From Duganella sp. BJB480 (GTDB taxonomy: Bacteria; Pseudomonadota; Gammaproteobacteria; Burkholderiales; Burkholderiaceae_D): a DNA stretch of 64,000 nt. Of this stretch, positions 31,378 through 35,103 are shown piece after piece (positions within the stretch are counted from its first letter, which is position 1; each line of letters opens with the position of its first letter). The notes beneath the pieces were generated by a model. The model made no database searches, was not told the DNA's origin, and saw only the letters and a list, made by a program, of their open reading frames with translations. Where the stretch lies: NCBI GenBank assembly GCA_003416985.1, contig QVIN01000003.1, positions 124,001 through 188,000 on the forward strand. The letters run 5' to 3'. Both the position numbers and the translations under genes were made by a program.

Positions 31378-32637
31378 TCACACCAGGGCAAGCCGGCGCA
31401 GGCGCCGCGTCGACGACCAGTTCTCCAGGTCGGCCTCGGCGCGGACGTCGTCGCAGGCCTGGACGATGCGCGACAACTGCGTCCGATCCAGGCCCGAGTT
31501 GAGCGTCAACCGCACCAGCGAGCGGTTCTTCGGCGTGGCCGGCGCGCAGAACATGGCGCCGTAGATGCCGTGCCCCTCCAGCAGCTTGCGCAGCGCCAGC
31601 GTCTTGGGCTCGGGGCCGGGCTCCAGCGCGATGATCTGCTCGCTGCCGTCGCTGACGTTGTAGCCCAGCGCGCTCAATTCCTCGCGCACCTCCAGCGCGT
31701 TGGCGCGCAGCGCGGCGCGGCGGTCGTCGGCCGCCGCGACGAAGTCGATGGCGGCGTCGAACCACGCCAGCTCGTGGCCCAGCAGGCAGGAGCTGAAGAT
31801 GGCCGGACGCGACTCCGACAGGAAGTAGCCCTTGAATTTGCTGGAACAGGTGATGAAGCCGGCGCGTCCGGCGAACGCCTTGGCCAGCGAGGCGGTGCGG
31901 AAGTGCACCCGCTCGCACAGGCCCAGCTCCGCCACCAGCCCGGCGCCGCGCGGGCCGTGCGTGCCCAGCGAGTGCGATTCGTCGACGATCAGCAGGCAGC
32001 CGTGGCGCTCGGCGATCTCCACCAGCTCGGGCAGCGGCGCCACACTGCCGTTGGTGCTGTACAGCGCGTCCACCACGATCAGGCCGCGCCCGTGGCGCGC
32101 CAGCTGCTTCCGCAGGTGCTCCATGTCGTTGTGCAGGAAGGGCACCGGCGCCGCCCCGGCCGACTGCACGCCCTCCCACAGCGAGGCGTGGGCCTGCATG
32201 TCGAGGTAGACCGGGATGCCGGGCGCGGCCAGCGTCTGCACCAGGCCGACGTTGGCCGCCCAGCCGGACTGCGCCAGGATGCCGTCCTGCGCCCCCATCA
32301 GGCCGGCGAACTTGCGCTCCAGCCGGTGCTGGGCGCTGCCCTCCTGCAGGTACACGGCCGACATCAGCAGCTCGCCCTGGCTGCGGGCCAGCGCCGCCAT
32401 CTGCGCCCCCATCAGCGCCGGCTCGCCGGCCAGGCACAGGTAGTCGTTCCCGGCCAGGAACACCGCCCCGGCCGGCGTGGGCTGCCAGGCGTGCGGATGC
32501 TCGCCTCCCAACAGCTGCTCGATGCGGGTGATGTAGTGTTCATCCATGCGCCGGGTCACGAAATCCGGCATCTGCTGTTCAGCCGGGATGGCAAAACCAG
32601 CGGTACGGATATGATCTTGAGCAATCGCGTTGGACAT
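31378..32637 (-). CDS. jqsA: alpha-hydroxyketone autoinducer synthase (CqsA/LqsA/JqsA type)
   Basis: This PLP enzyme of the alpha-oxoamine synthase family makes the precursor of an alpha-hydroxyketone signal (CAI-1 in Vibrio, LAI-1 in Legionella, JAI-1 in Janthinobacterium). The 419-residue chain contains the PLP aspartate/histidine motif IVDESHS (D219, H222) and the Schiff-base lysine K253 in TASLAKAFAGRAG, a context typical of CqsA rather than BioF or KBL. An AAGGAA lies 8 bp before the ATG. Identity is fixed mainly by the divergent sensor kinase and response regulator next to it. Confidence 0.88.
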   Translation of the reverse strand: MSNAIAQDHIRTAGFAIPAEQQMPDFVTRRMDEHYITRIEQLLGGEHPHAWQPTPAGAVFLAGNDYLCLAGEPALMGAQMAALARSQGELLMSAVYLQEGSAQHRLERKFAGLMGAQDGILAQSGWAANVGLVQTLAAPGIPVYLDMQAHASLWEGVQSAGAAPVPFLHNDMEHLRKQLARHGRGLIVVDALYSTNGSVAPLPELVEIAERHGCLLIVDESHSLGTHGPRGAGLVAELGLCERVHFRTASLAKAFAGRAGFITCSSKFKGYFLSESRPAIFSSCLLGHELAWFDAAIDFVAAADDRRAALRANALEVREELSALGYNVSDGSEQIIALEPGPEPKTLALRKLLEGHGIYGAMFCAPATPKNRSLVRLTLNSGLDRTQLSRIVQACDDVRAEADLENWSSTRRLRRLALV

Positions 32638-32721
32638 GTTCAGGTTCCTTTCGTAGTTTTGGAAATGGTTGTTTTTTTATGCGTCCGACTCCAACCTTGA
32701 GGCCAAAAAAACCAGCGGGGA

Positions 32722-32735
32722 TTGATACTGATCAA
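32722..32735. promoter_or_regulatory. perfect FNR-type box TTGAT-ACTG-ATCAA between jqsA and jqsS
   Basis: The dyad matches the FNR/Anr consensus at all ten defined bases. Its left half coincides with a TTGATA that could serve as a -35 for jqsS, with a weak TGATAT 17 bp on, so binding might repress jqsS. For jqsA the box would sit near -60 relative to a CATAAA -10-like hexamer. Another TTGAT half-site lies at 32743-32747. Confidence 0.6.
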
Positions 32736-32748
32736 TTAATGTTTTGAT

Positions 32749-34089
32749 ATGCAGAAGTGCGTTGCAAATTCAGGCGATCATGGGACCTTGATAAATGTCA
32801 ATTTCGCCATGACGCAATCCCTGCAAGAACGCTGGAAACGCTGGCAGCACGGTTTGGTCCAGTCGCTGCTGCATTACCATGGCCGCGAGGATCATGCGAC
32901 CGTGCGCGTTCTGCTGCTGGCGAGCATCGGCACGGTGGGCATGCCGCTGTACTACGTGATCTGGCAAAGCTTCTTCCCGCAGGAATACGAATCGCTGTCG
33001 CTGCGCCTGCTGGGCATCCTGCTGTGCGCGCTGGGCCTGTTCGCCCGCCAGTTCAACCGGCGCGTGCTGCACCTGTACCTGCTGGTCACGCTCAGCTACA
33101 TCTTCCCGTTCTTCTTCACCTTCATGTTCCTGATGAACCACGCCTCGGGCGTCTGGAGCGAGTCCCTGCTGATCGGGCTGGTGGTGCTGTTCCACTTCGA
33201 CACCGGCCTGGCGCTGACGGCCTACCTGACCGGCACCACCGTGGCCTGCGCGGCGGCCGTCATGCTGGGCGAAAGCGAAACGCTGCTGAGCAGCCAGGTG
33301 CTGCAGCAGTTGCCGATCCACCTGTTCACCATCGCGGTGCTGTCGGTGGCCAAGATCAGCCGCCAAGTGCTGGCGCAGGAAAAGCTGGCCGGGCTGGGCG
33401 CCGGCCTGGCCACCGTCGCGCACGAGCTGCGCACGCCGCTCACCAGCGTCGACGCCAATGTGCGCGGCCTGCTGCGCGTGTACGCCGAGGCCGGCAGCCG
33501 CACGCAGGAGGACCGGCTCGGCGCCATCGACGCGCTGGCGCGCATCCAGTTCGAGGTGCGCCACATGAACCACATGATCGACCTCTTCCTGCTCAGCGCC
33601 ACGGCGGTGCGGCAGAACCTGCGGCCGGTCGAAAAGGTGACGATGGAGGGCGTGGTGGAGGCGGCGCTCAAGCGCTACCCCTTCCCCAACGCCACCCAGC
33701 AGAAACTGGTGACGCTGGAAGTGCGCCGCAACTTCATCTTCGCCGGCCAGACCGAGTTGTCGGTGGTGATCCTGCTTAACCTGCTGCGCAACGCGCTCAA
33801 GGCCGTGCAGCGCGCCGGCAAGGGGCGCGTGCGTATCGTGGTCGACGGCGCGCACGCGCCGCCGCGGCTCCTGTTCATCGACACCGCCTGCGGCATCCCG
33901 GCACAGCAGATGCCGATGATTTTCCGGCGCTTCTACTCCCATCCCCCGCACAACGGCGCAGGCATCGGCCTGGCCCTGTGCGAGGAGATCATGCACGCGT
34001 GGAACGCCACCATCCGTTGCGTATCGCGCGAAGGTGCCTACGCCATTTTCATCCTTGAATTTCCCCAGCAGCAGTCCATCCCGAGGTGA
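32749..34089 (+). CDS. jqsS: sensor histidine kinase of the alpha-hydroxyketone system (JqsS/LqsS type)
   Basis: This membrane kinase is predicted to sense the JqsA product. About six hydrophobic segments fill residues 52-202. The kinase core follows, with the phosphorylated histidine H225 (VAHELRTPLTS), N box NLLRNAL, G1 DTACGIP and G2 GAGIGLALCEEI. It has no receiver domain, unlike Vibrio CqsS, and so resembles Legionella LqsS. The start is uncertain: the ATG at 32749 and the one at 32809 (MTQSLQERW) both lack a good ribosome site. The stop is 3 bp before jqsR. Confidence 0.88.
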   Translation: MQKCVANSGDHGTLINVNFAMTQSLQERWKRWQHGLVQSLLHYHGREDHATVRVLLLASIGTVGMPLYYVIWQSFFPQEYESLSLRLLGILLCALGLFARQFNRRVLHLYLLVTLSYIFPFFFTFMFLMNHASGVWSESLLIGLVVLFHFDTGLALTAYLTGTTVACAAAVMLGESETLLSSQVLQQLPIHLFTIAVLSVAKISRQVLAQEKLAGLGAGLATVAHELRTPLTSVDANVRGLLRVYAEAGSRTQEDRLGAIDALARIQFEVRHMNHMIDLFLLSATAVRQNLRPVEKVTMEGVVEAALKRYPFPNATQQKLVTLEVRRNFIFAGQTELSVVILLNLLRNALKAVQRAGKGRVRIVVDGAHAPPRLLFIDTACGIPAQQMPMIFRRFYSHPPHNGAGIGLALCEEIMHAWNATIRCVSREGAYAIFILEFPQQQSIPR

Positions 34090-34092
34090 CAC

Positions 34093-35103
34093 ATGCATTT
34101 GCCCGTTTATTCCCATCCCACCCTGACCGTCCTGGTCGACGACAGCGACTCGTTCCTGCGCAGCCTGTCGTTCCAGCTCGACCCCATGCTGGCCAGCCAG
34201 ACCTTCCACGACACCACCACCGCGCTGCAATGGCTGCGCAGGGAACCGCAATCGGGCTGCGTTCCGCTGCACGTCAACTTCGACATGCACAACCTGCCGG
34301 CCGACCAATGCAACGTGGCGCTGGACCTGGAGCGCATCTACCGCATCGGCCAGCAGCGCCACCGCTTCGAGACGCCGTCGGTGCTGGTGGTCGACTACTC
34401 GATGCCGCAGATGAACGGACTACAGTTCTGCGAAGCGGTGGCGCACCTGCCGTGCAAGAAGATCCTGTTCACCGGCGCGGCCGACGAGAAGATCGCCGTC
34501 AGCGCCTTCAACCGCGGCCTGATCGACCGCTACATCAAGAAGAGCGACGACCATGCGCTCGACCTGCTGGAAATCGAGATCGCCTCGCTGCAGCGCGACT
34601 ACTTCGACGCCCAGTCCGAAACGCTGCGCGAGCTGGTGCTGCTGCATAACTACCACTTCCTGGGCGACCCGGCGCTGGCGCGGCTGGTGCGGGAGCTGAG
34701 CGCCAGCATGGGCTTCGTCGAGCACTACATCTTCCCGAATCCGACCGGCATCCTGTTCCTCGACAAATTCGGCAAGGCCAGCCTGATGATGATAGAAACC
34801 GAACAGGGGATGTACGCGCAGTACGAGATCGCGCGCGACAGCGACGCGCCGCCGTCGTTGATGGACGCCTTGCTGGAGCGGCGCGTGCTGCCGTTCTTCT
34901 CCGACCCGGACGGCGACGGCATGTACTCGCGCCGCGTGGGCGACAACTGGCACCGCTATTGCGCGGCGCCGCGCGTGTGCCAGGGCCGCGAGACCTACTA
35001 CTGGGCGCTGTTCGACCTGCCGCCGCACTACTTCGACAAGCAGCCGTATTCCTACGCCGACTTCCTCAGGGAGCGGGCGGCGCTGGAGACCATCGCGGCC
35101 TAG
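34093..35103 (+). CDS. jqsR: response regulator of the alpha-hydroxyketone system (JqsR/LqsR type)
   Basis: The receiver domain fills about residues 8-155. It has the acidic pair D16/D17, the phosphoacceptor D101 (VLVVDYSMPQMNG), T127 and a lysine pair near 149-150. About 45 extra residues lie between the acidic pair and D101. The C-terminal 170 residues hold no helix-turn-helix or GGDEF that I recognise, as in LqsR, whose output is also atypical. A GAGGTGA overlapping the jqsS stop is its ribosome site. Confidence 0.85.
   Translation: MHLPVYSHPTLTVLVDDSDSFLRSLSFQLDPMLASQTFHDTTTALQWLRREPQSGCVPLHVNFDMHNLPADQCNVALDLERIYRIGQQRHRFETPSVLVVDYSMPQMNGLQFCEAVAHLPCKKILFTGAADEKIAVSAFNRGLIDRYIKKSDDHALDLLEIEIASLQRDYFDAQSETLRELVLLHNYHFLGDPALARLVRELSASMGFVEHYIFPNPTGILFLDKFGKASLMMIETEQGMYAQYEIARDSDAPPSLMDALLERRVLPFFSDPDGDGMYSRRVGDNWHRYCAAPRVCQGRETYYWALFDLPPHYFDKQPYSYADFLRERAALETIAA

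Follow-up and report, generated by a model that had tools for sequence, protein, structure and literature searches.

A JqsA-JqsS-JqsR quorum-sensing locus of Duganella whose intergenic palindrome has the form of an FNR/Anr box

The stretch of DNA analysed here (the window) comprises 64,000 nucleotides of Duganella sp. BJB480 (contig QVIN01000003.1, positions 124,001 to 188,000), taken from a genome of 7.27 Mb. At window positions 31378-35103 it carries three open reading frames for a synthase, a histidine kinase and a response regulator, which were confirmed where an earlier note on this DNA had placed them (Table 1). That note took them for a hydroxyketone quorum-sensing locus, a view that is supported by the family score and tree of the synthase, the match of the regulator to LqsR and the conserved gene order. 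Judged by sequence, the identification is secure, and the locus, including the whole mechanism proposed below, very probably belongs to the published JQS (JqsA-JqsS-JqsR) quorum-sensing system of the Oxalobacteraceae. This gene set is ordinary for these bacteria and was published for Duganella sp. HH01 in 2013; the locus itself is one further member of a described system, and the new element is the reading of its promoter region, where a palindrome of the FNR/Anr type lies between jqsA and jqsS.

Table 1. Features of the jqs locus and its neighbourhood, in window coordinates
Feature	Position	Strand	Size, evidence and remarks
jqsA-like alpha-hydroxyketone autoinducer synthase	31378-32637	minus	419 residues, lysine K253; NF005526, CqsA 3hqt, tree
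FNR/Anr-type box TTGATACTGATCAA	32722-32735		Sequence; between jqsA and jqsS; fits the published JAI-1 motif
Second, imperfect copy of the box TTGATAAATGTCAA	32788-32801		Spaced 66 bp from the first; 7 bp ahead of the likely start of jqsS
jqsS-like membrane histidine kinase without receiver	32809-34089 (longest frame from 32749)	plus	426 residues; HisKA, HATPase_c
jqsR, LqsR-family response regulator	34093-35103	plus	336 residues; 6sy9, alignment of 35, predicted model
Bacterial truncated globin (neighbourhood gene)	30951-31346	minus	PF01152, 6e-41

The synthase scores 543 bits against NF005526, a curated model of alpha-hydroxyketone autoinducer synthases with a cut-off of 428, and among proteins of solved structure CqsA is closest to it in sequence (3hqt, 6e-103). 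Of the named synthases, that of Rugamonas sp. A1-17 is the nearest (98% identity). The lysine context TASLAKAFAGRAG given in the earlier note for a pyridoxal phosphate (PLP) synthase of the CqsA/LqsA/JqsA type is present as well. The column of K253 holds a lysine in all 51 aligned proteins, those of the BioF type included, and is presumably that of the PLP-binding lysine. Alternatively, the gene could encode a metabolic enzyme of the BioF/KBL type that happens to lie beside an unrelated two-component pair, since these enzymes form one common superfamily and the bioF model yields 231 bits. This is extremely improbable: the score stays under the bioF cut-off of 426 while that for hydroxyketone synthases is exceeded, a separate BioF is encoded elsewhere in the genome (446 bits, above the cut-off), and the linkage to a kinase and an LqsR-type regulator is conserved. 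The phylogeny that the earlier note had proposed as a check points the same way. A tree of 51 proteins was built from the synthase of the window, 16 of the 53 named loci, 27 of the 30 loci of a phylum sample, four plasmid records and three BioF-type proteins of the same genome; three rows (the window's own copy, a Collimonas row and a fragment) were left out, long branches were flagged by the program, and no named LqsA row was included. The window synthase is placed among those of Duganella, Rugamonas and Janthinobacterium, inside a larger clade with both Vibrio records, and a branch with 100/100 support divides the synthase side (36 rows, one of which, L183, is a long-branched protein under the cut-off) from the genome's own BioF, two paralogues and BioF/KBL-like proteins. 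On the basis of family scores and tree, a BioF/KBL identity was rejected. Synthase matches over the cut-off occur in 16 of 398 genomes of the phylum sample and in none of 14 control genomes.

The longest frame of the kinase (32749-34089) would encode 446 residues and probably overstates the gene. A start at the ATG at 32809 is favoured because an ATG occupies this column in 51 of 60 aligned relatives and an in-frame stop lies at most 20 codons upstream of it in 44 of 60, near-duplicates and the window being among the rows in both counts; the window itself has no in-frame stop within these 20 codons. The starts of the kinase alignments alone are indecisive, falling at residues 18-21 in 31 of 86 cases, earlier in 29 and later in 26. 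The protein had been described in the earlier note as a six-span kinase without a receiver: a Pfam scan indeed found HisKA and HATPase_c and no receiver domain, but by a crude hydropathy scan the N terminus shows five hydrophobic segments clearly, which does not confirm six spans. Counted from the probable start, residues 1-190 resemble the N termini of two Vibrio kinases encoded next to a synthase (1.7e-13 and 2.8e-13; the database comprised only 21 loci).

JqsR matches the crystal structure of Legionella LqsR (PDB 6sy9, 9e-42; structure cited through PMC10653808 and PMC11237717). The receiver residues D16, D17, D101, T127 and K150 are invariant in all 35 aligned regulators, and D101 is the probable phospho-acceptor. 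Ahead of the D101 strand, the receiver contains about 43 extra residues (roughly 51-93, with low model confidence), close to the 45 noticed earlier; this insert is common to LqsR and was rejected as a novelty. The earlier note had left the output domain unidentified and suggested a structure prediction of the C terminus; the predicted model matches 6sy9 almost throughout, which identifies the domain, beginning at about residue 172, as LqsR-type. A Pfam scan recognises the receiver only, and since the output domain has no recognised DNA-binding part, JqsR probably acts indirectly.

The arrangement was compared over 94 loci, made up of the window, 40 loci from a search with JqsR and 53 named loci from a search with JqsA, with organisms overlapping between the sets. 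Synthase and kinase are divergent in 80 of them, and in all 80 the regulator follows the kinase, as the earlier note had described for the window. A Cupriavidus locus (L131) has synthase and kinase in another order and its regulator was not found, whereas at 13 loci, including L074, which is ended by a contig end, no synthase was found. Among 195 genomes of the family, a synthase over the cut-off is present in 45 and a JqsR match of at most 2.3e-51 in 57 (counted from a table). JqsR is matched in all 12 genomes of the same genus, the match in G106 being split into two pieces, and seven of the 12 have a synthase over the cut-off. The other five, G067 (locus L057), G106 (L077), G133 (L053), G155 (L055) and G177 (L054), possess jqsS-jqsR with no synthase over the cut-off anywhere in the genome, and it is possible that these species listen to the signal of their neighbours. 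In other genera of the family, eight loci (L061, L070, L071, L072, L075, L076, L078 and the contig-end locus L074) encode LqsR-type regulators beside which neither a synthase nor a kinase was recognised.

The 80 divergent loci yield 69 distinct intergenic sequences, of which 60 contain the palindrome TTGAN6TCAA, whereas 200 dinucleotide shuffles gave a mean of 0.68 and a maximum of 4. None of the 69 has the N7 form. Most first copies carry T at position 5 (43 of 60 regions) and A at position 10 (51 of 60), and the common form is therefore TTGAT-N4-ATCAA, which the first box of the window fits. A second copy occurs in 42 distinct regions and is spaced 66 bp from the first in 32 of these. The sequence TTGATNNNNATCAA is printed as the FNR box in PMC4505428 and as the Anr motif in PMC6588701. 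For JQS, a TTGAN6/7TCAA palindrome was reported upstream of jqsA, vioA and chiA (PMC5080296), and TTGATATTTATCAA is quoted ahead of the violacein operon (PMC5638281, PMC7662799), one of these two papers (PMC5638281) naming the element the 'JqsR binding motif'.

The sequence comparisons indicate that the palindrome is probably read by a protein of the Crp/Fnr family rather than by JqsR, because it has the FNR/Anr form, a box of the same form precedes ccoN in this genome, and the five congeners without synthase all keep a perfect strict box upstream of jqsS. The possibility implied in PMC5638281, that the palindrome is an operator specific for JqsR, appears distinctly unlikely. It would account for the box standing beside jqsS/jqsR even where jqsA is missing, for its not being found before the neighbouring globin gene in the 18 chosen genomes without a strong JqsR match, and for the many published regulated genes and operons that are marked as carrying the motif (PMC5080296). 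It agrees poorly with the resemblance of JqsR to LqsR and its Pfam result, and with the same box before ccoN and near other genes of a low-oxygen type in a chosen set. Reporter data also speak against it: loss of a 49-bp piece including the motif lowered the activity of the vioA promoter by 75-90%, whereas loss of jqsA lowered it by about half (PMC5080296). The authors attribute this difference to a link with chitin metabolism; the data also fit an activator that is partly independent of the signal.

Genome-wide counts bear on the same question. The strict box occurs 25 times in this genome and not once for a reversed control, and the loose box 98 times compared with 38. The frames neighbouring the 24 strict sites besides the jqs one, some of which are intragenic, were inspected with a simple composition filter, and ten proteins near eight strict-site loci were scanned, chosen for their low-oxygen look and not as an unbiased sample. 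CcoN, UbiU, a phosphate acetyltransferase and a heavy-metal ATPase scored over the cut-off, while HemN (a fragment), an Fnr-subfamily factor, a UspF-like protein, a FixL-like kinase and a polyhydroxyalkanoate synthase stayed under it and one protein had no match in the scan. In the relative G048, 15 of 55 sites were inspected, of which eight lie inside frames and one lies ahead of a frame that is CcoN by eye. A further strict box, TTGATGCATATCAA, is located at window positions 13605-13618. Over all 195 genomes, those with a synthase have more boxes per Mb (p 0.001, genome sizes rounded), because the 12 genomes of genus g6 (e.g. G005, G109 and G123), all with a synthase, are rich in boxes (21-106 strict boxes each, against 0-48 in the other genera sampled). 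When this genus is excluded (33 genomes with and 150 without synthase), the density of strict boxes does not differ (p 0.40), which is a further point against a JqsR operator, and the abundance of the motif was rejected as a sign of JQS.

The box could also be read by a Crp/Fnr-family factor that is dedicated to JQS and does not sense oxygen, which seems rather unlikely, if less so than an operator for JqsR. In its favour, 13 Crp/Fnr helix-turn-helix matches over the cut-off were found in this genome and only three of them contain the motif CX2CX5C; against it, none of the 13 lies near the jqs locus, and the jqs box agrees in form with the one ahead of ccoN. The FNR-like form of the box suggests that oxygen may govern JQS signalling. 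Tentatively, and with somewhat less than even probability, we propose that the motif named after JAI-1 or JqsR binding is an FNR/Anr box, that in many Oxalobacteraceae oxygen gates hydroxyketone quorum sensing by way of a Crp/Fnr-family factor, with JqsR acting in another way, and that several species without synthase may listen. Several observations weigh against the reading of the locus as a whole, promoter included. The box is missing in nine of the 69 intergenic regions (eight of the Collimonas type and one from a bin labelled Gallionella), and at some related loci the synthase is absent or the regulator broken. It follows jqsS/jqsR and not the neighbouring globin, which would equally fit a factor dedicated to JQS. 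Finally, JqsA failed to complement cqsA mutants of V. cholerae and V. harveyi (PMC3566124). Among the papers listed in searches of mainly open-access literature, none was seen to link JQS, or violacein in these genera, to FNR, and the main text of PMC5080296 mentions neither 'FNR' nor 'Anr'.

The truncated globin gene starts about 30 bp past the stop of jqsA on the same strand, and co-transcription of the two is possible in this genome. Globin and rmuC also adjoin at five loci without jqsA, and in many of 20 genomes, hand-chosen from 163 with a globin match, the end of an FtsX-type permease is readable by eye just before the globin; the gene therefore belongs to an older neighbourhood. A functional partnership with jqsA is thus unsupported, and the globin is probably not part of JQS. 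A search of the 350 bp ahead of the globin found TTGAN6TCAA in none of the 18 chosen genomes without a strong JqsR match, and in both of those with a JqsR-like gene or remnant there (G070 and G108); the box does not go with the globin.

Taken as a mechanism, JqsA would be a PLP enzyme that, to judge by its family, produces a signal of the alpha-hydroxyketone type, which JqsS, a membrane kinase with a CqsS-like N terminus, would sense. By analogy with LqsS/LqsR, phosphate may then pass from JqsS to D101 of JqsR, whose LqsR-type output domain probably acts indirectly. The divergent promoters of jqsA and jqsS share the palindrome of FNR/Anr-box form, probably read by a Crp/Fnr-family factor, through which oxygen may be coupled to signalling. 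The reading of the promoter matters, as the element has been ascribed in print to quorum sensing and, by one paper, to JqsR binding. Should it prove to be an FNR/Anr box, some of the published JAI-1 regulon could reflect effects of oxygen, and oxygen and cell density would converge on one promoter. Strains HH01 and HH102 are genetically tractable, so that this can be tested there directly.

The closest known systems are those of Duganella sp. HH01 and Janthinobacterium sp. HH102 (PMC3566124, PMC5080296), which share with the window the three genes, the LqsR-type regulator and TTGAN6TCAA between jqsA and jqsS; no categorical difference was seen at the level of the locus. Deletion of jqsA in HH01 decreased violacein by 83% and was partially complemented by lqsA or cqsA, the structure of the JqsA signal not being determined in that study (PMC3566124). 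The jqs organisation is the same in those strains of PMC5080296 that have the system, with 31 and 14 genes depending on JAI-1. The Lqs system of Legionella pneumophila likewise combines a synthase, a kinase without receiver and LqsR, which shares its receiver insert and output domain with JqsR, but there hdeD lies between convergent lqsS and lqsR (PMC3376566). CqsA/CqsS of Vibrio agrees in the synthase family and the kinase N terminus; however, CqsS has its own receiver and signals via LuxU/LuxO (PMC3376566), whereas the window encodes a separate LqsR-type regulator. PhcX of Ralstonia is also a regulator of the LqsR family, but is linked to phc genes, with no lqsA (PMC10653808).

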